43,393 nt of DNA, from positions 1 through 43,393 of the forward strand of contig JASMLT010000010.1 of the NCBI GenBank assembly GCA_030748555.1. Direction: 5' to 3'. The translations under genes and the position numbers were made by a program. This stretch comes from Acidimicrobiales bacterium. GTDB taxonomy: Bacteria > Actinomycetota > Acidimicrobiia > Acidimicrobiales > MedAcidi-G1. Below the pieces are notes generated by a model, which saw nothing but the letters and a program-made list of their open reading frames with translations, made no database searches and was not told the DNA's origin. Shown piece after piece: positions 15,858 to 26,983 of this stretch; within the stretch, counting starts at the first letter, position 1; every line of letters starts with the position of its first letter.

Positions 15858-17303
15858 ATGAATCTGATGCTTAAGAAAATGGCTGTTCCTTTACTTCTTT
15901 TAATCGTTTCTGTGTTCGCGTGGTTTAATGCGGCGTCACTAGACAGCCAAAGTGGAAAAGAATTAGTGCCTGTAGTTTCTGACAATGAAAGCTCACTGTT
16001 AACTCCTTTACTGTCAGCTCGAAGGGTGCCAGTCTTCCTGCAAGCTCCCATCGCTGATAGAGAGCTCAAAAATGAACTGGAAAACCTTGTAGCTCAACTT
16101 CCTGGACTGTCTTGCATTAATTTGCTAGAAGACGGAAGAGTGATCTTCGAACAGCTATCTAATGAACCTATAATTCCAGCAAGCACCCAGAAACTATTAA
16201 CAGCAGTCGCCCTTCTGGAGAATTTCGGGCCTGAGTACAAGTTTTCTACCAAAATAATTTCTGAAACGCAGCCAGTAAACGGAACTTTAAAAGGGGATTT
16301 ATGGGTCATCGGAGGAGGGGATCCTCTCTTGATGACCTCTAAATATGCTGAGCGTTATAAAGATGCATTTCCTTATACAAACATTAAAGACTTTGCTCTA
16401 AAAGTTGTTTCTTCGGGTATAAATCACATTGAAGGGTCAATTATTGGCGATGAGAGCCTTTTTGATGAAATGAGATTTGTAGATACTTGGCCGGAGAGAT
16501 TTAGATATACGGATCAAAAGCAATCTGGGCCAATAAGCGCCCTTTCTTTAAACGCAGGGTTTATCCGTTGGGATCCCGTAAAAGAGTCAAATGGATTTAA
16601 CACTCCGGCAGAGGAACCAGCAGAATACACAGCGAGAGTGTTGATGGGAATTTTAGAAGACAATGGAATCACAGTAAGTGGTGATTCTTCGACTGGCCAA
16701 GCTCCAGAAACCGCTTTTTTTGAAGTCGCCACGATCGAATCACCGCCGATGTCGGAAATCATTTCCAAAATGCTCCTGGGAAGCGATAATACAACAGCCG
16801 AAATATTACTCAAGGGTCTTTCAGCACGTGTTGAAAGACCTGGAACTTCGCGCGCGGGCGCCACTATTGTAGCTGAGTCATTGAGACTTTTAGGGTACAA
16901 CATGGAACAAGTCGAGGTTATGGATGCGTCAGGTCTTGATTATGGAAATCGAGTCACTTGTAAACTCCTAACGGAATTGTTGGACAGTGGTGCACATTCG
17001 AATGAATTAAAACAAAGTTTGCCAGTAACTGGTAAAAGTGGCACTCTACGTAAGAGACTGTTAGATACACCCGCCGAGGGACTGGTGAGTGGAAAAACAG
17101 GCTCTTTGAATGGTGTTATAAGTCTTGCCGGTACAGTCGACACTATTTCCGACAGGAGTTTAAGTTTTGCTTTTGTAACTAATTTCGAGGGAGATAAGGC
17201 TCGTATCAAATATCTACATGATCAGATATTGCTCGAAATGATCAAATACCCGCAAGGTCCTTCAATTGATTTGTTAAAACCGGTTCTTCGCAATGGGTTA
17301 TAG
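15858..17303 (+). CDS. dacB: D-alanyl-D-alanine carboxypeptidase/endopeptidase (PBP4, DacB type)
   Basis: The 481-residue exported protein trims peptidoglycan peptides. An N-terminal basic stretch and hydrophobic helix (about residues 6-25) form a signal peptide or anchor. Three penicillin-binding motifs are present in order: SxxK at Ser109-Lys112 (ASTQK), SDN at 309-311, and KTG at 413-415 (SGKTGSLNG). The long insert between SxxK and SDN is the PBP4 (peptidase S13) hallmark. GGGGGGAA lies 4 bases before the ATG, a strong ribosome site. The 3' end overlaps the LON-domain gene by 11 bases, and this gene probably heads the run to the lipoprotein protease at 20157. Confidence 0.93.
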   Translation: MNLMLKKMAVPLLLLIVSVFAWFNAASLDSQSGKELVPVVSDNESSLLTPLLSARRVPVFLQAPIADRELKNELENLVAQLPGLSCINLLEDGRVIFEQLSNEPIIPASTQKLLTAVALLENFGPEYKFSTKIISETQPVNGTLKGDLWVIGGGDPLLMTSKYAERYKDAFPYTNIKDFALKVVSSGINHIEGSIIGDESLFDEMRFVDTWPERFRYTDQKQSGPISALSLNAGFIRWDPVKESNGFNTPAEEPAEYTARVLMGILEDNGITVSGDSSTGQAPETAFFEVATIESPPMSEIISKMLLGSDNTTAEILLKGLSARVERPGTSRAGATIVAESLRLLGYNMEQVEVMDASGLDYGNRVTCKLLTELLDSGAHSNELKQSLPVTGKSGTLRKRLLDTPAEGLVSGKTGSLNGVISLAGTVDTISDRSLSFAFVTNFEGDKARIKYLHDQILLEMIKYPQGPSIDLLKPVLRNGL

Positions 17304-17913
17304 AACGATTCCGATGTTTCCTCTTGGTCTTGTTCTTTTCCCCGGGCAGGTCTTGCCATTGCATGTTTTCGAAGATCGATACCGAATAATGGTTGAGGAA
17401 ATAATCGACAAAGATAGAGAGTTTGGTGTCGTTTTAATTGAACGTGGAAGTGAAGTAGGGGGCGGCGATACTCGCAAGAACGTGGGGACTCTTGCCGAAA
17501 TAATTGATTCTGAAAAATCCAACGATGGAAGATGGTTGCTTTTAACTGAGGGAACGAAACGAATTGAGACTTCTAGGTGGCTTGAAGATTCCCCTTACCC
17601 AAGAGCAGAAGTTTCATTTTTAGATGAAGATAAGTTTCTTCCGCACGATACACAGGACTGGCTTAAAATCGTGACTCATATGAGAAGGGTGTTGGCTGTT
17701 CTCGCTGAGTTAGGAGATGACGTTGCACCAATTTCCATCGATATCTCCGAAGATCCTCATTTGGGATCTTTCCAGATGAGCTCCATTCTTCCAATTACAC
17801 CGTTTGATTCTCAGAAATTGTTAGAAGTTGATTCAGTAAGAGAACGGTGCACTCTGTTGAAAAGATTTCTAGCAAATCTTGAAGAAACTGCTAGTTCTCG
17901 CCTGCTCGAATAA
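17293..17913 (+). CDS. LON N-terminal (PUA-like) domain protein
   Basis: The 206-residue protein matches the substrate-binding domain of Lon: IPMFPLGLVLFPGQVLPLHVFEDRYRIM at the start, FGVVLIERGSEVGG and VGTLAEI, then a helical half ending near DSVRERCTLLKRFL. It has no AAA or protease domain, so it is a stand-alone LON-domain protein as found across actinobacteria. Its biochemical role is not established. It starts inside the end of dacB (11-base overlap). Signal peptide and membrane segments are absent, so it should be cytoplasmic. Proximity to the proteasome block is notable but proves no functional link. Confidence 0.9.
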   Translation: MGYRTIPMFPLGLVLFPGQVLPLHVFEDRYRIMVEEIIDKDREFGVVLIERGSEVGGGDTRKNVGTLAEIIDSEKSNDGRWLLLTEGTKRIETSRWLEDSPYPRAEVSFLDEDKFLPHDTQDWLKIVTHMRRVLAVLAELGDDVAPISIDISEDPHLGSFQMSSILPITPFDSQKLLEVDSVRERCTLLKRFLANLEETASSRLLE

Positions 17914-17949: not shown

Positions 17950-18249
17950 ATGAGTTCAAAAGGAAAATTTGAAAACATGCTGGACTTGCTCCGCGACTAC
18001 ATTCGTCAAGAAACCATAGAACCAGTCAAATCTCTCTTTGGTTCCGTTCTTTTCCTTTTCATAGGGTCTCTATTCATTTCGCTCGGATTTATTTCCATTT
18101 CAATTGGCTTAGTCACTTTTCTTCAAAGATTCGATGGGTTGCAGGCGTGGTTTTCATGGGTTCCTTACTTGTCTGGCTCATTGTCTCTCTTATGTATGGC
18201 ATTTTTCGGCATCAGAATACTAATCGTTAAAAAAGGTAAAGATGTCTAG
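17950..18249 (+). CDS. Small two-helix membrane protein, holin-III-like
   Basis: The 99-residue protein has an amphipathic, charged N-terminus (about 1-28) followed by two hydrophobic helices (about 29-56 and 68-92) and a short basic tail. This resembles the actinobacterial phage-holin-superfamily III proteins, which are usually chromosomal and not phage-derived; the assignment is by overall pattern. No phage gene is nearby. Its stop overlaps the next small gene by 8 bases. Together with the next two small genes it forms a coupled trio leading into trmI. Confidence 0.65.
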   Translation: MSSKGKFENMLDLLRDYIRQETIEPVKSLFGSVLFLFIGSLFISLGFISISIGLVTFLQRFDGLQAWFSWVPYLSGSLSLLCMAFFGIRILIVKKGKDV

Positions 18250-18448
18250 TAAAAGAATTTCTGAAGCGGATCTTGAGGAAGCTTTTGAAGATTTTATTGG
18301 GGAGTCTCTTCCCAGCGAGGCTGATGCACCATCTTTACTTATCATTGGTGCGACAGTATTAGCAGCTGCCGTGGTTTTCGGTATTTTCACTGCTGGAAAA
18401 CGTTCAGGCAGACTCCTGTCAACTGTTGTTGAAATTAAAAGGTCGTAA
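18242..18448 (+). CDS. Small single-helix membrane protein, unknown function
   Basis: The 68-residue product has an acidic N-terminal half (EADLEEAFEDFIGESLPSEAD), one hydrophobic helix (about 31-50, PSLLIIGATVLAAAVVFGIF) and a basic C-terminus (GKRSGRLL...EIKRS). The charge pattern predicts an N-out/C-in topology. It overlaps the preceding holin-like gene by 8 bases and is followed after 2 bases by another small gene, so translation is probably coupled. I do not recognise the family. Confidence 0.6.
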   Translation: MSSKRISEADLEEAFEDFIGESLPSEADAPSLLIIGATVLAAAVVFGIFTAGKRSGRLLSTVVEIKRS

Positions 18449-18450
18449 CA

Positions 18451-18672
18451 ATGTCATTTCGCAAGTTGCTTCTACGGATTACATTACGCTTTTTAAAGCG
18501 AAGAAATAGATTGTTCGCACCAATAGTTTTTTTCGGTTGGATCATTTCGTTTTTACGTTGGCTTTCGAGGAGAGAGAAAAAATCAAATCACTTAATCGAA
18601 GATCTCAGAATAGGGGAAAATATTTCGATATCACATTTGAACAGCCACAACGATTCGGAAACTGATGAATAA
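18451..18672 (+). CDS. Small basic protein with a hydrophobic segment, unknown function
   Basis: The 73-residue product starts strongly basic (FRKLLLRITLRFLKRRNR), contains one moderately hydrophobic stretch (about 20-37, LFAPIVFFGWIISFLRWL), then RREKK and an acidic tail. It could be a peripheral or single-pass membrane protein. It begins 2 bases after the preceding gene and overlaps trmI by 8 bases. The overlap with genes on both sides and the fixed strand support it as real. No family is recognised. Confidence 0.55.
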   Translation: MSFRKLLLRITLRFLKRRNRLFAPIVFFGWIISFLRWLSRREKKSNHLIEDLRIGENISISHLNSHNDSETDE

Positions 18673-19438
18673 GACTTATCAGATTGGAGATCAAGTTTTA
18701 CTCATAGATACCAAAAGAAGACAGTATCTAGTAACTCTTAAAGAGGGGGGTGAATTTCATACTCATTCTGGTGTCGTCTTTCACGACAAACTGATAGATG
18801 TCCCTGAGGGGACGTCGGTAGTATCAAGTTCAAATTCTGTTTACATGTCATTCAGACCGTCTATGTCTGAATATATAAAAAAGATGCCGAGAGGTGCACA
18901 GGTTATATACCCCAAAGATATAGGTGCGATACTGATGACCGCTGATGTTTACCCCGGGGCGAAAGTATTTGAGACAGGCGTTGGTTCAGGTGCTCTTTCT
19001 ATGGCGCTATTAAGAAATGGGGCAAATGTATTTGGATACGAAATTAGGGAGGATTTTGCTAATCGAGCTCAAGAGAACGTCAGAGTTATGCTTGGAGAGG
19101 ATGCGCTGAAAAGATACAACGTAGAACTCAGAGACTCTTACGAAAAGATAGAAGAGCAAGATTTCAATCGCGCAATTATAGACCTGCCAGAACCGTGGCT
19201 AGTCGTACCCCATCTGAAGAAAACCCTTTTAAGCGGAGGAATTGTTGTCGCTTACACCCCGTCGATAAAACAAGCAATAAAGTTCCGCGAAGCTATAGCA
19301 AGTAACGGGTTTTCATTGGCAGAAACTATTGAGGTTTTACACCGTGGATGGCATATTGATGGGGAAGCAGTTAGGCCTGACCATCGTATGGTTGCCCATA
19401 CGGGTTTTATCAGTTCAGGACGACTACTTAACAAGTGA
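18665..19438 (+). CDS. trmI: tRNA (adenine-58-N1)-methyltransferase TrmI
   Basis: The 257-residue class I SAM methyltransferase makes m1A at position 58 of the tRNA T-loop. The clear markers are RPSMSEYIKKMPRGAQVIYPKD (63-84), which is diagnostic of the TrmI N-terminal region, and FETGVGSGALS (102-112), the SAM-binding glycine motif. A catalytic-type DLPEPW segment follows. Family enzymes act as tetramers. It lies upstream of mpa, as in mycobacteria. It overlaps the preceding small gene by 8 bases and the next gene by GTGA (19435-19438). Confidence 0.95.
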   Translation: MNKTYQIGDQVLLIDTKRRQYLVTLKEGGEFHTHSGVVFHDKLIDVPEGTSVVSSSNSVYMSFRPSMSEYIKKMPRGAQVIYPKDIGAILMTADVYPGAKVFETGVGSGALSMALLRNGANVFGYEIREDFANRAQENVRVMLGEDALKRYNVELRDSYEKIEEQDFNRAIIDLPEPWLVVPHLKKTLLSGGIVVAYTPSIKQAIKFREAIASNGFSLAETIEVLHRGWHIDGEAVRPDHRMVAHTGFISSGRLLNK

Positions 19439-20157
19439 AAATAAACTCGATAATTTTGCTGAAATTTCTTCTTGTGATGCTTGCTTCATGCGCCTCTTCA
19501 GAAAAAGAACAAACAAATGAATCGTTCAACACGAACAACGAAGAATATTCCCAACTTCATAACGAGATAGCGGGTTCAGATCAGCGAAACTCCATATTTC
19601 AGATAAAAGGCTTAGGTTGCAACTCCTTGCAATACGGAACAGGATTTTTCATCGAAGAAAATACTATTGTTACTAATGCCCATGTGGTTGCTGGCGTGAA
19701 TTCCCCGAGAATTATTCATAACGGTGAAGGGTATGATCTCGATTTTATTTCACTTGACCCCAATAGTGATTTAGCAATCTTGAGAAGTGAAAACTTTTCA
19801 CATCAACCGTTGAAACTGGATGAAGCAGAAGAAGGGGAATTAGGGACAGTTGTAGCTTTTGTCAAAGACGGACAGAAAGTTACAACTGAAGTCAAAATTC
19901 GAGAAAAAATACTAGCCGTCGGTAAAGATATTTTTGGCCAACCGGGGGAATCCAGAGAAGCATTATCCTTGGAAGCAAGAATCGAATCAGGTTTTTCCGG
20001 TGCACCCGTTCTTAATGAGGACTTTGACGTAGTGGGGGTAATATTTTCACGTTCCAGAGGGGGAAGTTCGACAGCTTATGCAGTCCAGTCCTCAGAGGTA
20101 GAAAAAATATTGGAAAAAGAACCTGACTTAAGTAGTTCCACTAACTGCGTTCCCTAA
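19435..20157 (+). CDS. Lipoprotein trypsin-like serine protease
   Basis: The 240-residue protein begins with a lipoprotein signal: a hydrophobic stretch ending LASC, with Cys19 as the lipidated residue. A linker rich in Asn, Glu and Ser follows. The chymotrypsin-fold triad is His83 (TNAHVVAG), Asp112 (NSDLAIL) and Ser188 (SGFSGAPV). Cys62 and the near-terminal Cys (TNCVP) could form a disulphide, as in mycobacterial MarP-like proteases. It has no PDZ domain. The GTG start overlaps the trmI stop as GTGA. It should act outside the membrane. Its substrate is unknown; cell-envelope stress response is an inference from HtrA and MarP relatives. Confidence 0.88.
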   Translation: MKINSIILLKFLLVMLASCASSEKEQTNESFNTNNEEYSQLHNEIAGSDQRNSIFQIKGLGCNSLQYGTGFFIEENTIVTNAHVVAGVNSPRIIHNGEGYDLDFISLDPNSDLAILRSENFSHQPLKLDEAEEGELGTVVAFVKDGQKVTTEVKIREKILAVGKDIFGQPGESREALSLEARIESGFSGAPVLNEDFDVVGVIFSRSRGGSSTAYAVQSSEVEKILEKEPDLSSSTNCVP

Positions 20158-20458: not shown

Positions 20459-20488
20459 TTGCCGAATGTTACACATAAATTTTAGAAT
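20459..20488 (+). promoter_or_regulatory. Candidate sigma-70-type promoter for the mpa operon
   Basis: TTGCCG (20459-20464) and TAGAAT (20483-20488) are separated by 18 bases and lie 50 bases before the mpa ATG, in the gap between the divergent ferredoxin and mpa. Each hexamer matches its consensus at four or five of six positions. This is a pattern match only; no transcription evidence is available. Confidence 0.35.
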
Positions 20489-20537
20489 GTATTATTGTGA
20501 ACCACTTCATAGTGAGAAACGAATTTTAGGAGCAAAA

Positions 20538-22307
20538 ATGACAGATTCAAAGGATGTTTCAGGTCAGTCATTTGAAATGGACGATGAGAACGTTTCGCAA
20601 GCCTTCTTGAAGGAAAGTAAAGCAGTGCTTGAAGAAGTGAAAGAGTTGCGTAAACACAGATTAGAGAACGCACAAAAAATTAATGAACTTAGAAAACAAA
20701 ATCGCGAAATTCTTTCTTCTTTAGATCAAGAAAAAACAAGAAATAGCAAACTAGCTGACACGCTTGAATCAGTTCGAGAGCAAGTTCTCAGTCTCCGAAA
20801 TGAAATAGAGAATCTTTCGAAACCACCTTCCGCTTATGGCACCATAGTGAAGATAAATGATGATGAAACCATCGACGTTACTTCTTCAGGAAGGAAAATG
20901 AAGTTAAATGTTCTCCCATCTGTAATCGAAACTTTAAAAATTGGTGATGAGGTAGTTCTGAATGAATCAATGGTTGTAGTCGACTCGCGCGAACCCGAAG
21001 TCAGTGGTGAAATAGTCAGAGTGAAAGAGATTCTGGAAGCTGGAAAGAGAGCAGTAGTCGTTGGGCGAACCGACGAAGAGCGCGTAGTGGAAATGGCTAA
21101 AGGCCTCCATGAGTCCGGCCTTAGGAGTGGTGATCATGTCCGAGTAGATGAAAGATCCGGAATTCTTTTGGAACGACTACCTCGACCTGAGGTCGAAGAT
21201 CTGGTTTTGGAGCAAATACCGAAAGAAACTTACGAAGATGTGGGAGGCCTGGACCGTGAAATCGAGATGATCGTAGACGCTGTCGAACTCCCCTTCATGC
21301 ATAAGGAGCTTTTTTCTCTGTATGAATTACCAGCACCAAAAGGAATTTTGTTATATGGACCACCCGGATGTGGCAAAACTCTCATAGCTAAAGCGGTTGC
21401 AAATTCACTTGCCTTAAAAGTTGCGGAAGTGACTGGAGATCACGCAGCGCGTAGTTACTTTTTGAATATCAAAGGCCCAGAACTTCTTAATAAATACGTA
21501 GGTGAAACAGAAAGACAAATACGACTCGTATTTCAACGAGCGCGAGAAAAATCTGAGCAAGGGTGGCCTGTAATTGTTTTTTTTGATGAAATGGAATCCC
21601 TTTTCAGAACTCGTGGGACTGGTATTAGCTCTGATATGGAATCAACGATTGTTCCACAGCTTTTAGCGGAGATTGATGGAGTGGAAACCCTGCAAAATGT
21701 GATTGTTATAGGAGCGTCTAACCGTGAAGACCTCATAGATCCTGCAATTCTTAGACCAGGTCGACTAGACGTGAAAATCAAAATAAAGAGACCAGATGAA
21801 GTTGCTGCCGCTCAGATTTTTAGTAGGTATCTCACAACAGATCTGCCTGTAGATGCCGGTCTAATTGAATCGCTCGGAGGAGGGGATGAAGATAAAGCAC
21901 TTAAAGCCATGACTGATGAAGCAGTTGCTGCGATGTACAGCACTGAAGAAGCCAATCAATTCCTCGAAGTCACCTACCAAAATGGGGAAAAAGAAGTTTT
22001 ATACTTCAAAGATTTCGCATCAGGAGCGATGATTGAAAACATAGTCAGACGGGCGAAAAAGTTGGCTATAAAAAGAGACCTTGCCGATGGTGCAAAAGGT
22101 TTACAGGTTGAAGACCTCCTTACCGCCGTAAGACAAGAGTTCAGGGAACATGAAGATCTACCTAACACCACTAACCCTGATGACTGGGCCAAAATTTCTG
22201 GAAAGAAAGGCGAAAGAATTGTATATGTCAGGACTTTAGCTCCGGATGCTCCAGAAGACAGCGGAGGGCGTTCTATCGAAGCCGTTACGACTGGCCAATA
22301 CCTGTAA
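20538..22307 (+). CDS. mpa: Proteasome-activating AAA+ ATPase Mpa/ARC
   Basis: The 589-residue ring ATPase unfolds pupylated proteins and feeds them to the 20S proteasome. I place the start at ATG 20538, preceded by AGGAG (20528-20532); an upstream ATG at 20466 adds unlikely residues. A long coiled coil (about 20-95) recognises Pup, followed by OB-fold repeats (about 98-220). The AAA domain has GPPGCGKT (274-281) and Walker B FFDEMES (Asp350, Glu351). The C-terminus ends TTGQYL, the penultimate-Tyr motif that docks on the alpha ring. Mycobacterial Mpa is of similar length (609). It leads the proteasome block. Confidence 0.97.
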
Positions 22308-22365
22308 CCTGCACGTTCTTTTACCTCAAGGCAAATTTCTTATTTTCTTAGGTTAAAGTCCGATT

Positions 22366-23886
22366 GTGGCACTCCGAAGAATTTATGGAACTGAAACCGA
22401 ATATGGGATTATTCATCGTGGAGTTAAGGAATCGAATCCTATAAGCGCATCATCTTTTTTAATTAACGCCTACTTAAGCAAGACATCTGATCCGGGTGTT
22501 GGCCCGAATTCGCCCAGAGTCGGCTGGGATTTCATAGACGAAACTCCTGATATCGACATACGCGGGTTTGCTCCAATCGGTTCATTGCCGCCAGAAATAG
22601 AACCAAATTTAGTTAACGCAGTTCTAGTTAACGGTTCTCGTTATTACGTTGATCACGCACATCCTGAACTCAGCACTCCGGAATGCTTGGATCCACTTTC
22701 TTTACTCAAATGGGACAGAGCAGGTGATGAAATACTCATCAACTCCATGTCAGCTGCTAACGAGGCACTCCCCGAAGGCGAGGAAATCATCATCTATAAG
22801 AACAACTCTGATGGCAAGGGCAACAGCTATGGTTGTCATGAAAATTACCTCGTGAGTAGAGAAACCCCATTTGGGCGGATAATTCAACACGCAACCACAC
22901 ATTTTATAACTAGGCAGATCTTTACTGGAGCCGGAAAAGTAGGAAGTGAAGCTGCAGGTGATAAAAGGATGGAGACGCCTTTCCAGTTGACACAGAGAGC
23001 AGATTTTTTCGAAGAAGAAGTTGGTTTAGAAACAACCTTGAAAAGACCAATCATCAACACAAGAGATGAACCTCACGCTGATCCTCTTAAGTATCGACGC
23101 CTTCATGTGATCATTGGAGATGCTAATTTGTGCGAAGTCGCTACCTTCTTGAAGTTAGGAACAACAGGAATTGTTATGGCGATGATCGAGGACGATTTTT
23201 TAGATAATCGAGTAAAAATAGCAGACCCTGTTTACGCACTACGGGAAGTTTCACGAGACCTGTCGCTAGAAGCACCTATTCGTTTAGAAGATGGTAGAAC
23301 TGTGACAGCTTTGTCCTTGCAATGGGAGATTTTCGAACGATCTGATAAGTACATAAATGAATTCGGGTATGAAAATGTTGGTGGTGAAAATGCACTAAAA
23401 GTTATGGATTATTGGGAAAAAGTCTTGTCAGCTTTAAGTTCAAATCCTGACCAATTATTTGGTGTTTTGGACTGGGTCACAAAGAAAAAAATCATTGATT
23501 CATATGCTCATAGGCACAACCTAGAAGTTGACGATTACAAATTGTCGGCTCTCGATTTGCAATACCACGATCTCCGACCAGAAATGTCACTTTTTTCTCG
23601 TATTTCAGCCGAGAAAATCGTCTCACCTGAAGAAGTTGCTTTCGCCATAGAAAATCCACCAGAAGAAACTAGAGCCTTTTTTCGCGGCAAATGCTTACAA
23701 AAATGGCCTGAGAACGTGATAATTGCGAACTGGGATTCGATAGTTTTCGATACTGGAGGTCAAAACCTTCACCGTGTGCCGATGATGGAACCTTTAAAAG
23801 GAAGTGCCCAACATGTGGGAGATCTGATTGATAACTGTGAAACGGTAATAGAGTTAATTCAAAGCATTTCAGAAACGGTCAAATAA
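22366..23886 (+). CDS. dop: Dop, Pup deamidase/depupylase
   Basis: The 506-residue carboxylate-amine-ligase-fold enzyme removes Pup from substrates and, where Pup ends in Gln, deamidates it. It shows GTETEYG (8-14), the Dop-type loop insert (about 38-75) absent from PafA, and YVDHAHPELSTPE, whose Asp96 matches the catalytic Asp. [10 protein letters not shown] and INTRDEPHAD are also present. The GTG start (22366) gives the invariant-looking MALRRIYGTE opening; the ribosome site is weak. Because this Pup ends in Glu, the deamidase step is not needed here and depupylation is its likely role. Confidence 0.96.
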   Translation: MALRRIYGTETEYGIIHRGVKESNPISASSFLINAYLSKTSDPGVGPNSPRVGWDFIDETPDIDIRGFAPIGSLPPEIEPNLVNAVLVNGSRYYVDHAHPELSTPECLDPLSLLKWDRAGDEILINSMSAANEALPEGEEIIIYKNNSDGKGNSYGCHENYLVSRETPFGRIIQHATTHFITRQIFTGAGKVGSEAAGDKRMETPFQLTQRADFFEEEVGLETTLKRPIINTRDEPHADPLKYRRLHVIIGDANLCEVATFLKLGTTGIVMAMIEDDFLDNRVKIADPVYALREVSRDLSLEAPIRLEDGRTVTALSLQWEIFERSDKYINEFGYENVGGENALKVMDYWEKVLSALSSNPDQLFGVLDWVTKKKIIDSYAHRHNLEVDDYKLSALDLQYHDLRPEMSLFSRISAEKIVSPEEVAFAIENPPEETRAFFRGKCLQKWPENVIIANWDSIVFDTGGQNLHRVPMMEPLKGSAQHVGDLIDNCETVIELIQSISETVK

Positions 23887-23901
23887 CTGAGGTTTATAAC
23901 A

Positions 23902-24096
23902 ATGGCTGAGAGAGAACTAAAGAAACGTAAAACACCTGAAAGTGATAAAAACGCTGGAGAATCAAGCGAACTTGCTCCAACCCGTAATGAAGAACTTTCA
24001 TCAGAGCTAGATGAACTCCTTGATGAGATCGACGAAGTGTTGGAAACAAATGCGGAAGAATTTGTGAAGAACTATGTCCAAAAAGGCGGGGAGTAG
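23902..24096 (+). CDS. pup: Prokaryotic ubiquitin-like protein Pup, GGE form
   Basis: The 64-residue disordered, acidic modifier has the conserved helical segment ELDELLDEIDEVLETNAEEF and ends YVQKGGE. Ligation to substrate lysines occurs through the side chain of this terminal Glu. Many actinobacteria encode GGQ and depend on Dop to make GGE; here it is encoded directly, as known in corynebacteria. GAGG lies 9 bases before the ATG. It follows dop by 15 bases and precedes prcB, with a small hairpin at its stop codon. Confidence 0.97.
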   Translation: MAERELKKRKTPESDKNAGESSELAPTRNEELSSELDELLDEIDEVLETNAEEFVKNYVQKGGE

Positions 24097-24112
24097 GCGC
24101 ACGTATTCGCCT
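24095..24112 (+). promoter_or_regulatory. Hairpin at the pup/prcB junction
   Basis: AGGCG (24095-24099) pairs with CGCCT (24108-24112) around an 8-base loop, overlapping the pup stop codon. A weak T-containing stretch follows (TTGTAGAGTTTTATT), but there is no clean terminator tail. It could attenuate or process the message so that pup is made in excess over prcBA. Such a short stem could also be chance. Confidence 0.35.
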
Positions 24113-24126
24113 TGTAGAGTTTTATT

Positions 24127-24921
24127 GTGACACTTCCAATTTTTACCCCAACAGAAGATCCAGGACCAAGTTTTTTCAGTCTGCTGCAAAAACTTGGAAT
24201 CCAACAAAATCCCTCTGAAAAAATCGCAAATAATGATTCAATCACACACGGGACAACCATTGTTGCGATTCGCTATAAAGGCGGTGTCCTTATGGCGGGA
24301 GATAGAAGGGCGACAAGCGGGCACTTAATCAGTCATCGAACCATGGAAAAAGTTTTCCCCGCGGATGCATTTTCAGGTGTGGGGATATCAGGTGCTGCGG
24401 GACCAGCTATGGAAATGGTGAGGTTGTTTCAATTGCAACTTGAACATTATGAAAAAGTTGAAGGTTCACCATTGAGTCTTGAGGGAAAGGCTAATCAGTT
24501 GAGTCTCATGCTAAAAGGCAACTTTCCTGCGGCATTGCAGGGCTTAGGAGTCATACCAATTTTCGCGGGGTATGAAGAAAAAACAACCGAAGGAAGATTA
24601 TTTCAATTTGATATAACGGGTGGGCGATATGAGGAGAAGGATTTCGTATCTACTGGATCTGGAAGTCTTCACGCTTCAACGGTCGTGAAACTACGGCATT
24701 CATCCTCTGTGGAACTCAGCGAAGCAATTGATATCGCTTTAGAAGCACTTTTAGAAGCATCTGAAGAAGATAGCGCTACTGGTGGACCTGATCTCTTAAG
24801 AGGAATTTTCCCGGTCGTAGCAAAAATCGACTCAAATGGCTTTGAACGCATATCCGATGATGAACTAGAGGGTCGCACTGAAACGATAGTTCAGAATATT
24901 TCACAAAGAGGAAACTCGTAG
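24127..24921 (+). CDS. prcB: 20S proteasome beta subunit
   Basis: The 264-residue precursor is the catalytic subunit. A 42-residue propeptide ends at THG, and autocleavage before Thr43 (TTIVAIRYKGG) exposes the nucleophile. AGDRRAT and MEKVFP supply the Asp and Lys partners. SGAAGPAMEM and the YEEKDFVSTGSGS segment are typical of actinobacterial PrcB. The GTG start is the first in frame after pup with a plausible, weak ribosome site (TAGAG). prcA follows after two bases. Confidence 0.97.
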   Translation: MTLPIFTPTEDPGPSFFSLLQKLGIQQNPSEKIANNDSITHGTTIVAIRYKGGVLMAGDRRATSGHLISHRTMEKVFPADAFSGVGISGAAGPAMEMVRLFQLQLEHYEKVEGSPLSLEGKANQLSLMLKGNFPAALQGLGVIPIFAGYEEKTTEGRLFQFDITGGRYEEKDFVSTGSGSLHASTVVKLRHSSSVELSEAIDIALEALLEASEEDSATGGPDLLRGIFPVVAKIDSNGFERISDDELEGRTETIVQNISQRGNS

Positions 24922-24923
24922 CT

Positions 24924-25601
24924 ATGACTATGCCAATGTATGTCTCACCTGAGCAACTTATGAAAGATCGCGCTGATTATGCGCGGAAAGGAATTTCGCG
25001 AGGAAGAGCCGCAGTCGCTTGCACATATTCTGAGGGAGTTTTATTGTGTGCGGAAAACCCCTCCAAAACTCTGCGAAAAGCTGGTGAGATATATGACAAA
25101 ATCGGCTTCATGGGAGTCGGAAAATACAGTGAATTTGATCAATTACGAATAGCAGGAATACGACATGCCGATCTAAAAGGTTATTCCTTCAGTCGTGATG
25201 ATGTAGATGCGCGTTGGTTGGCCAATCAATACGCGCAGATATTGGGCCAGTATTTCACTCACGAGATGAAACCACTAGAGGTCGAAATGATTGTTGCAGA
25301 AATCGGCGATTCTGCAGAAGATGATCAACTTTTTCATTTACTTTATGACGGGACGGTTATGGATACTTCTTCCTTCGTGGTGATAGGTGGAGAGGCTGAA
25401 GTTATAAGGGATCGAGTTCAGGAGAATTGGGAACCAGGTTCCTCGTTGAAAGAGAGCATTAAGTTAACTACCCGTGCATTATCCGGGCCAGAAAAAAGTT
25501 TCTCCGCAGATGAATTGGAAGTGGCTCTCCTTTCGCGCGGGAATGGTAGGAGAGCTTTTTCTCGGATAGAAGGTGAAGAGTTAAACGGGCTTCTTGCCTA
25601 A
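24924..25601 (+). CDS. prcA: 20S proteasome alpha subunit
   Basis: The 225-residue protein forms the outer rings that gate the chamber and bind the Mpa C-terminus. The N-terminus MTMPMYVSPEQLMKDRADYARKG is the PrcA gate and H0 helix. It continues with ISRGRAAVACTY, IYDKIGFMGVGKYSEF and LFHLLYDG. No catalytic Thr is present, as expected. The gene is two bases behind prcB. A 7-base-pair hairpin covers its stop codon. The C-terminus is shorter than in some relatives, ending GLLA. Confidence 0.96.
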   Translation: MTMPMYVSPEQLMKDRADYARKGISRGRAAVACTYSEGVLLCAENPSKTLRKAGEIYDKIGFMGVGKYSEFDQLRIAGIRHADLKGYSFSRDDVDARWLANQYAQILGQYFTHEMKPLEVEMIVAEIGDSAEDDQLFHLLYDGTVMDTSSFVVIGGEAEVIRDRVQENWEPGSSLKESIKLTTRALSGPEKSFSADELEVALLSRGNGRRAFSRIEGEELNGLLA

Positions 25602-25607
25602 AGCCCG
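25586..25607 (+). promoter_or_regulatory. Hairpin at the prcA/pafA junction
   Basis: CGGGCTT (25586-25592) pairs perfectly with AAGCCCG (25601-25607) around an 8-base loop, covering the prcA stop codon. No T-run follows, so it is not a standard intrinsic terminator. It may stabilise the upstream message or reduce read-through into pafA. Confidence 0.45.
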
Positions 25608-25624
25608 CTTAGTCTCACAAACAA

Positions 25625-26983
25625 ATGCAGAGACGAATATATGGGATCGAAAGCGAGTACGGAGTTACTTGTACAGTTGATGGTCAAAGACGCTTAAGCC
25701 CAGATGAAGTAGCCCGATACTTATTTAGAAGAGTTGTTTCTTGGGGTAGAAGTTCAAATGTCTTCCTGCAAAACGGAGCTCGCCTTTACTTGGATGTTGG
25801 TTCTCATCCTGAATATGCTACGCCCGAATGTGATTCCGTTCGGTCTGTAATCGCATACGAAAAAGCCGGCGAGCGAATATTAGAACAACTTTCAAAGAGT
25901 GCAGAAAATCGTTTAAACGAAGAAGGTGTTGAGGGGAAGATATACCTTTTTAAAAACAACACAGACTCTGCTGGTAATTCTTATGGGTGTCATGAGAATT
26001 ATTTAACAAATCGGCGTGATGAATCGCTTCAATACTCTGAAGTTCTAATTCCTTTCTTGATAAGTCGACAGATATATGCAGGTGCCGGAAAAATTTTACA
26101 AAGCGGAAACGGGGCTATGTATTGTTTAAGTCAAAGGGCAGAACATATTTGGGAGGGAGTTTCAAGCGCGACTACAAGGTCGCGACCGATTATTAATTCA
26201 CGAGATGAACCTCATGCTGACGCGGAGAGATTTCGGCGTCTGCACGTAATAGTGGGGGATTCAAATATGAGTGAATACGCATCCTTTTTAAAAGTTGGGG
26301 CATGTGGATTGCTTTTACGAATGTTGGAAGAGCCGAACATGATTTTTCGCGATATGACCTTAGAGAATCCAATAAGCGCGATTCGACAAATCAGCCACGA
26401 TCTTACTTGCAGAAGAAAAGTACGGTTAACTAACGGACGTGAAATGTCAGCTCTTGAAATGCAAAAGGAATTTTTAGGAAAAGCTCATCGTTTTTCTGAG
26501 ATGAGGGAATTAAACGATGAAGAGCAAGAGGTTATGAAAATGTGGGAACATTGTCTGGACCGTTTAGAGGATGATCCGCTTTCCTTATCCGCTGAATGTG
26601 ACTGGGTTGCAAAATACCATTTGGTGGAAAAGTACCGAACGCGCAATAATCTTTCGCTTGCCGATTCACGAGTAGCTCTACTTGATCTTCAATACCATGA
26701 CATCAACACACATAGAAGCTTGTTTTATCACATGGATAGAAAAGGTTTAACTAAGAGCATTTTAGATGAAGAAGAAATCAGACACTCTGTCGAGGAACCC
26801 CCTGCGACAACTCGCGCAAGACTACGAGGTGAATTTATCCGACGCGCTAAAGAGAAGAAACGGGACTACACGGTGGACTGGGTTCACCTAAAACTAAACG
26901 ACCAAGCTCAAAGAACTGTTCTATGCAAGGATCCGTTTCGCTTTGAGGACGAAAGAGTCCAAAAGCTTATTGATTCCCTATAG
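25625..26983 (+). CDS. pafA: PafA, Pup-protein ligase
   Basis: The 452-residue enzyme uses ATP to phosphorylate the Pup C-terminal Glu and join it to substrate lysines. It opens [13 protein letters not shown] (Glu9 binds Mg), has [15 protein letters not shown] with catalytic Asp57, and shares SYGCHENYL and [10 protein letters not shown] with Dop. It lacks the Dop loop. Residues Glu9 and Asp57 fall at the same positions as in the mycobacterial ligase. It lies 23 bases after prcA, giving one compact locus for tag, ligase, depupylase, unfoldase and protease. Confidence 0.97.

Follow-up and report, generated by a model that had tools for sequence, protein, structure and literature searches.

Operons of small membrane proteins have been described in Escherichia coli, Pseudomonas, and Actinoplanes. 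The E. coli genes yqjD, yqjE, and yqjK are packed similarly to the three genes upstream of trmI that are the subject of this study. The Pseudomonas genes PA3040-3042 encode a YqjD-like protein, a YqjE-like protein, and a variable third product, and are reported, in the part of the source available to us, to be induced by envelope stress and in stationary phase (PMC11302039). The Actinoplanes genes ACSP50_3380-3382, which belong to the families DUF4235, DUF3618, and Holin-X, are tabled in the accessible part of another source as upregulated when a sigma-H-type factor is expressed (PMC11205660). In the phylum Actinomycetota, Holin-X (PF07332) recurrently precedes a small partner gene. The family was found in 64 of 100 phylum genomes at E ≤ 1e-4, and DUF3618 gave 58 matches in 40 of 100; 42 of these matches, from 34 of the 40 genomes, lie on the same strand within 400 bp behind Holin-X. 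A literature search for PF07332 and Phage_holin_3_6 found no papers under those names, and among the matches listed for Acidimicrobiia, the proteasome, and TrmI none deals with this gene cluster by title.

The window, which is the whole stretch of 43,393 nucleotides that was analyzed, comes from an Acidimicrobiales genome of 1.35 Mb in 73 contigs that is about 70% complete. Three small open reading frames follow each other on its forward strand: ORF1 (17950..18249, 99 aa), ORF2 (18242..18448, 68 aa), and ORF3 (18451..18672, 73 aa). ORF1 overlaps ORF2 by 8 nt (18242-18249), ORF2 is separated from ORF3 by 2 nt (18449-18450), and ORF3 overlaps trmI by 8 nt (18665-18672). A sequence-only reading had given the same lengths and spacing, and they proved exact when the coordinates were rechecked. 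The 8-nt overlap of ORF1 with ORF2 is kept in all five own-genus loci measured, and that of ORF3 with trmI in 6/6 loci. Across the loci fetched from the order, the genes are mostly touching, with gene starts in this packing survey set by rule.

By hydropathy, ORF1 has two transmembrane segments and ORF2 a single one, the one segment of ORF3 being marginal (mean 1.69). Two segments are found in all 73 ORF1-family sequences tested, and the AF2 model of ORF1 is a helical hairpin of helices 4-59 and 70-97 with a mean pLDDT of 83.5. ORF2 ends in a conserved basic tail, G+R.GR..STVVEI+R. ORF3 is very basic, with a net charge of +6, a short helix, and a conserved tail motif of the GE.(L/I).(I/V).HL type; its model is of modest confidence (pLDDT 70.9), and the C-terminal part is without regular structure. 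The transmembrane cut-off of 1.5 is reached by only 16 of 72 ORF3 sequences tested across the wider family, which weakens the case for a one-helix membrane protein. The earlier description of a two-helix, a one-helix, and a basic one-helix protein therefore holds for ORF1 and ORF2, and for the basic character of ORF3, but its helix is marginal.

As judged from profile comparisons, ORF1 is related to Holin-X, the YqjE kind of protein. The window copy scores 14.9 bits against PF07332, for which the Pfam cut-off is 28.4, and all 30 aligned ORF1 members match the family at E ≤ 0.1, with a best value of 1.5e-7. Five of the eight genomes of the class in the phylum-wide PF07332 search match at E ≤ 1e-4; only one of them passes the cut-off, and its match stands at the ORF1 place as an orthologue. 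An ORF1 relative from outside the class (genome G183) also passes the cut-off. In profile-profile comparison, ORF1 matches the set of ORF1 relatives from outside the class with an E-value of 5.5e-13, and that set matches Holin-X of other actinobacteria with 2.8e-15. The direct comparison of ORF1 with Holin-X gives an E-value of 3e-5 and a probability of 73%, with a Holin-X profile built from 19 of the 20 loci fetched, in which starts were set by rule. The aligned ORF1 members match 24 further Pfam families, Ost5 in 8/30 and each of the others in 1-3/30. The window ORF1 also matches the NCBIfam model LBF_4227 weakly (19.7 bits, cut-off 75), as do 4/30 members at E ≤ 0.1. Searches of the PDB yielded a best E-value of 0.16 with the ORF1 sequence profile and, with Foldseek and the ORF1 model, eight matches at E ≤ 10, none of them at E ≤ 0.001. 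As a direct homologue of E. coli YqjE, ORF1 was rejected at a profile comparison probability of 0.4% (single sequence).

By sequence, ORF2 and ORF3 appear to form two families without a consistent Pfam match. Members of the ORF2 family match 20 scattered Pfam families, each in 1-3 of 32 members and with a best E-value of 0.0018, which were taken as chance matches to transmembrane or coiled segments. ORF3 members match a single family, in 1/28 at E = 0.091. Neither window protein matches an NCBIfam model at E ≤ 1; in the PDB sequence search, the ORF2 profile reaches a best E-value of 0.044 and ORF3 has no match at E ≤ 1. Several candidate assignments were rejected. DUF3618 (PF12277) is absent from the Pfam matches of ORF2 and its 32 aligned members, and hhalign gives it a probability of 5% (12 of 20 fetched loci used). 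For YqjD/DUF883, the hhalign probability with ORF2 is 1.1% (single E. coli sequence), and there is no DUF883 Pfam match; for ORF3 as YqjK it is 0.2% (single E. coli sequence). The sequence-only reading had stated that none of the three proteins has a known role. This is borne out for ORF2 and ORF3 in that they lack a consistent Pfam match, but not for ORF1, which is a relative of Holin-X, itself a family of poorly known role. Tiny genes of this sort, from two families that most genomes of an order carry, are easily passed over by annotation pipelines.

All three ORFs are real genes under purifying selection in the genus. Compared with five own-genus loci, dN/dS is 0.09-0.17 for ORF1, 0.13-0.22 for ORF2, and 0.06-0.21 for ORF3 (four of the five pairs, one pair being saturated); trmI, for comparison, has 0.03-0.07 with the same loci. 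Profiles built without the own genus were scored on the window ORFs, on shuffled sequences, and on other frames. They recover ORF1, ORF2, and ORF3 with 72.1, 57.3, and 19.9 bits, respectively, whereas 1000 shuffles of each reach at most 9.4, 6.9, and 5.9 bits, and 458 other frames of the window at most 6.8, 6.4, and 2.9 bits. The recovery is weakest for ORF3, indicating that the own-genus ORF3 is a divergent member of its family.

The order ORF1-ORF2-ORF3 is co-conserved through most of the Acidimicrobiales. Single-sequence searches found ORF1 in 56 of 61 relatives and ORF3 in 12 of 61 (both at E ≤ 1), the latter strongly only in seven of nine own-genus genomes, and ORF2 in 112 of 148 genomes of the order at E ≤ 0.1. 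With profiles, which include rows from some of the 148 genomes searched, ORF2 was found at E ≤ 0.001 in 140/148 genomes (110 of the 114 that are at least 90% complete) and ORF3 in 117/148 (91 of 114), 16 of the 117 ORF3 matches crossing an in-frame stop that is presumed to be the gene's own end. Every one of the 117 ORF3 matches shares its contig and strand with ORF2 and lies at most 255 bp downstream.

Eighty loci were also fetched. They were hand-picked from trmI matches, some from genomes in which ORF2 was already listed, and 32 of them are from the own family, so the even draw of 148 genomes provides the fairer count. The ORF1 profile was found in 78 of the 80 loci, and in a 79th (L147) by tblastn only; ORF2 was found in 79, and ORF3 in 76 of these 79. 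One locus (L077) starts inside trmI. The complete trio is present in 76/80 loci from 34 of the 36 families sampled, with the models of the three ORFs built from the same loci, that of ORF3 by iteration, and with a few ORF3 matches partial or oddly placed (e.g., L090, L108, and L117). The sequence-only reading had named a lack of co-conservation beyond near-identical genomes as the result that would speak against its proposal of a small membrane complex; the search for it found the trio spread over the order.

The trio is located in an apparent housekeeping gene run. Upstream on the same strand are a D-Ala-D-Ala carboxypeptidase of the S13/PBP4 type (15858..17303) and a stand-alone LON substrate-binding domain protein (17293..17913). 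Downstream, trmI (18665..19438, +), of the tRNA m1A58 methyltransferase family with GCD14 and TrmI-like N-terminal domains, is followed by a trypsin-like protease with an N-terminus that by eye resembles a lipobox (19435..20157, +). The nearest NCBIfam model of the protease is MarP (141.9 bits, below the cut-off of 250), and many relatives have a related protease behind trmI. After a ferredoxin gene on the opposite strand come the Pup-proteasome genes (20466-26983), downstream of trmI in the window: the proteasome ATPase ARC/Mpa (20466..22307, +), Dop (22366..23886, +), two proteasome subunits, and a Pup ligase family protein. Two WYL-domain proteins follow. Promoter-like sites around the trio are no commoner than in shuffled sequences in a promoter and terminator scan.

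Gene order alone could be taken to mean that the trio is a small membrane complex acting with TrmI, which would anchor tRNA modification, or the whole translation and proteolysis operon, at the membrane. Of the 137 genomes that have ORF2 and in which trmI could be placed, 136 carry ORF2 at most about 3.1 kb upstream of trmI and on its strand, and in the remaining one the two genes are on different contigs; placement was typed in 144 of 146 trmI genomes, leaving out G055 and G131 (weak or split trmI matches) and two weak second ORF2 matches (G140 and G010). The ORF2 profile also gave matches in 58 of 296 phylum genomes at E ≤ 0.01, many of them weak, and 14 stretches were fetched: five of them from other orders of the class, six from beyond the class, and three from the order itself. 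ORF1-ORF2 precede trmI in all five class members of other orders. However, the link of the trio to trmI is not constant. The pair is adjacent in all six loci outside the class, yet neither trmI nor the proteasome ATPase was found there (tblastn at E ≤ 1e-3 in the 7.5-11.5 kb fetched). These six pairs (L166-L171) may be of use for functional comparison. Within the order, 46 of 79 loci, from 23 families, have ttuB and ttuA between ORF3 and trmI, and trmI is present in 146/148 genomes whereas ORF3 was found in 117. ORF3 has no secure match outside the order; of the five class members, two have wrong-strand matches only, one has a broken weak match (6e-4), and two have none.

The ttuB product is a 66-aa ThiS/SAMP2-like protein and the ttuA product a TtuA-like PP-loop protein. 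One example pair, directly upstream of trmI (L097:3406-4565, TtuA_LIM_N and PP-loop), was identified with Pfam and NCBIfam, and the 45 further loci among L071-L150 by tblastn; phmmer aligns the example TtuA to the PDB sequence of Sulfur Transferase TtuA at 1.9e-86. At E ≤ 1e-20, ttuA is absent from the nine own-genus genomes searched, which are only 68-84% complete, and a literature search on TtuA with Actinobacteria gave only archaeal work by title. In Thermus, m1A58 made by TrmI promotes the 2-thiolation of m5U54, according to the part of the source available (PMC6313347), and ttuBA may thus be the functional neighbor of trmI. Together, the intervening ttuBA and the pairs without trmI outside the class argue against the functional tie to trmI and a lipoprotein protease that the sequence-only reading had drawn from the strict packing. 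The three proteins probably work with one another at the cell membrane and not with the adjacent tRNA enzyme, and a complex with TrmI is very unlikely. The case shows that a partner read from the packing of genes in a single window, here trmI, may be the wrong one, with the wider synteny pointing elsewhere.

The same gene order bears on a role as a Pup-proteasome membrane adaptor, in which the trio would recruit ARC/Mpa to membrane substrates. ARC lies downstream of trmI in 66 of the 80 fetched loci, some of the remainder being short contig pieces, but it is missing from the fetched stretches of the six pairs outside the class, and the Pfam matches of ORF1, ORF2, and ORF3 members include no adaptor domain, leaving such a role little chance. 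Somewhat less improbable is an order- or class-dedicated hetero-oligomeric platform, in which the proteins with the STVVEIRR tail and the GE.L.I.HL motif would tether to the membrane either ribosomes or the products of the downstream genes for tRNA modification and the Pup-proteasome. The name Holin-X itself raises the idea of a phage-derived lysis or toxin cassette with a true holin and helpers, to which two weak matches could be added, one of ORF2 to a spanin among PHROGs (E 0.1) and one between ORF1 and a generic 2TM effector of defence (E 0.025). Against it, the trio is under purifying selection, spans the order nearly always as a single copy, and stands beside housekeeping genes. The three window ORFs have no PHROG match below E 0.1, the neighbors identified are housekeeping genes rather than a prophage with an endolysin, and the ORF1 effector match was the only one among the six proteins scanned for anti-phage defence with PADLOC. 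A phage cassette is thus highly improbable.

Three unrelated small genes might also have remained together only through unbroken gene order. Overlaps are common in compact genomes, and trmI and the downstream protease overlap in the window too. Given trmI alone, the evolutionary rates of trio pairs covary at 0.38-0.51 over 65 loci, with 0/999 label permutations as high. In the 33 loci with controls, still given trmI alone, the trio pairs reach 0.23-0.42 compared with 0.29-0.33 between the trio and ARC, and the value for ORF1-ORF2 (0.23) is no higher than that for ORF1-ARC (0.29). Given trmI and ARC, the trio pairs retain 0.15-0.35 compared with 0.08-0.13 between the trio and LON. The rate covariation within the trio is therefore weak and suggestive at most. 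On the other hand, ORF3 lies right behind ORF2 in all its matches across many families, whereas other neighbors (LON, ttuBA, and the protease) come and go among the loci of the order, and beyond the class ORF1 and ORF2 are still paired at other loci. Operon inertia is accordingly unlikely.

The explanation we prefer, with a probability of roughly 0.4, is that the trio is a single, tightly packed module of small inner-membrane proteins, passed on vertically, that would serve as a scaffold for the envelope, resting ribosomes, or both. Its components would be the Holin-X hairpin (ORF1), a single-span protein with a basic C-terminal tail (ORF2), and a very basic, membrane-associated helix (ORF3). 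Most likely, the three proteins would form a small scaffold of the kind predicted for E. coli YqjE and YqjK; complex formation, topology, and translational coupling are inferred. By analogy, the scaffold might, in cells that grow slowly or are under stress, stabilize the envelope, hold resting ribosomes at the membrane, or do both, and its place beside trmI and the Pup-proteasome genes would be inherited gene order. Co-conservation across the order, packing, purifying selection, kinship with Holin-X, the pairs of Holin-X and DUF3618, and the analogous operons count for the module. Against it count the absence of a relation of ORF2 or ORF3 to DUF3618, YqjD, or YqjK and of a direct match of ORF1 to YqjE; the score of the window ORF1 below the PF07332 cut-off, which one of eight class genomes passes; the housekeeping-like run with promoter-like sites no commoner than in shuffles; the weak rate covariation; and the lack of a secure ORF3 outside the order. 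The assignment of a scaffold, envelope, or ribosome role, which draws on the analogues, is the most uncertain part and is in itself doubtful.

Very probably, the trio is a variant, specific to the class, of the Holin-X/YqjDE-type operon of small membrane proteins. To call it an undescribed system, as the sequence-only reading did, is therefore too strong, since ORF1 is a Holin-X relative and like operons are described, as far as the available parts of the sources show, in E. coli (yqjDEK), Pseudomonas (PA3040-3042), and Actinoplanes. With the Holin-X family (Phage_holin_3_6, PF07332, YqjE type) ORF1 shares the two-transmembrane hairpin and the profile link; it differs in being divergent, with the window copy below the curated cut-off and without a direct match to E. 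coli YqjE. Like the trio, E. coli yqjCDEK and Pseudomonas PA3040-3042, as these appear in the material available, are closely spaced genes for small membrane proteins, one of which is of the YqjE type; there, however, YqjD comes before YqjE, and no sequence relation was found between ORF2 and YqjD or between ORF3 and YqjK. The Actinoplanes genes are, in the accessible part of their source, consecutively numbered actinobacterial neighbors that include Holin-X and share one table of upregulated genes, but they have other partner families and a tie to a sigma factor, whereas the trio lies in the trmI-proteasome neighborhood. In the Holin-X and DUF3618 pairs of Actinomycetota, the partner follows straight after Holin-X in the same strand and order, often touching it. 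DUF3618 is not detectably homologous to ORF2, and 11 of the 12 DUF3618 frames used are longer than it. Because DUF3618 is often found behind Holin-X, ORF2 may be read as the occupant of the partner slot in this order. The pairing with Holin-X ties the ORF2 and ORF3 families to the YqjDE-type operons and makes the trio an actinobacterial test case for a possible role of such operons in envelope stress and ribosome hibernation.
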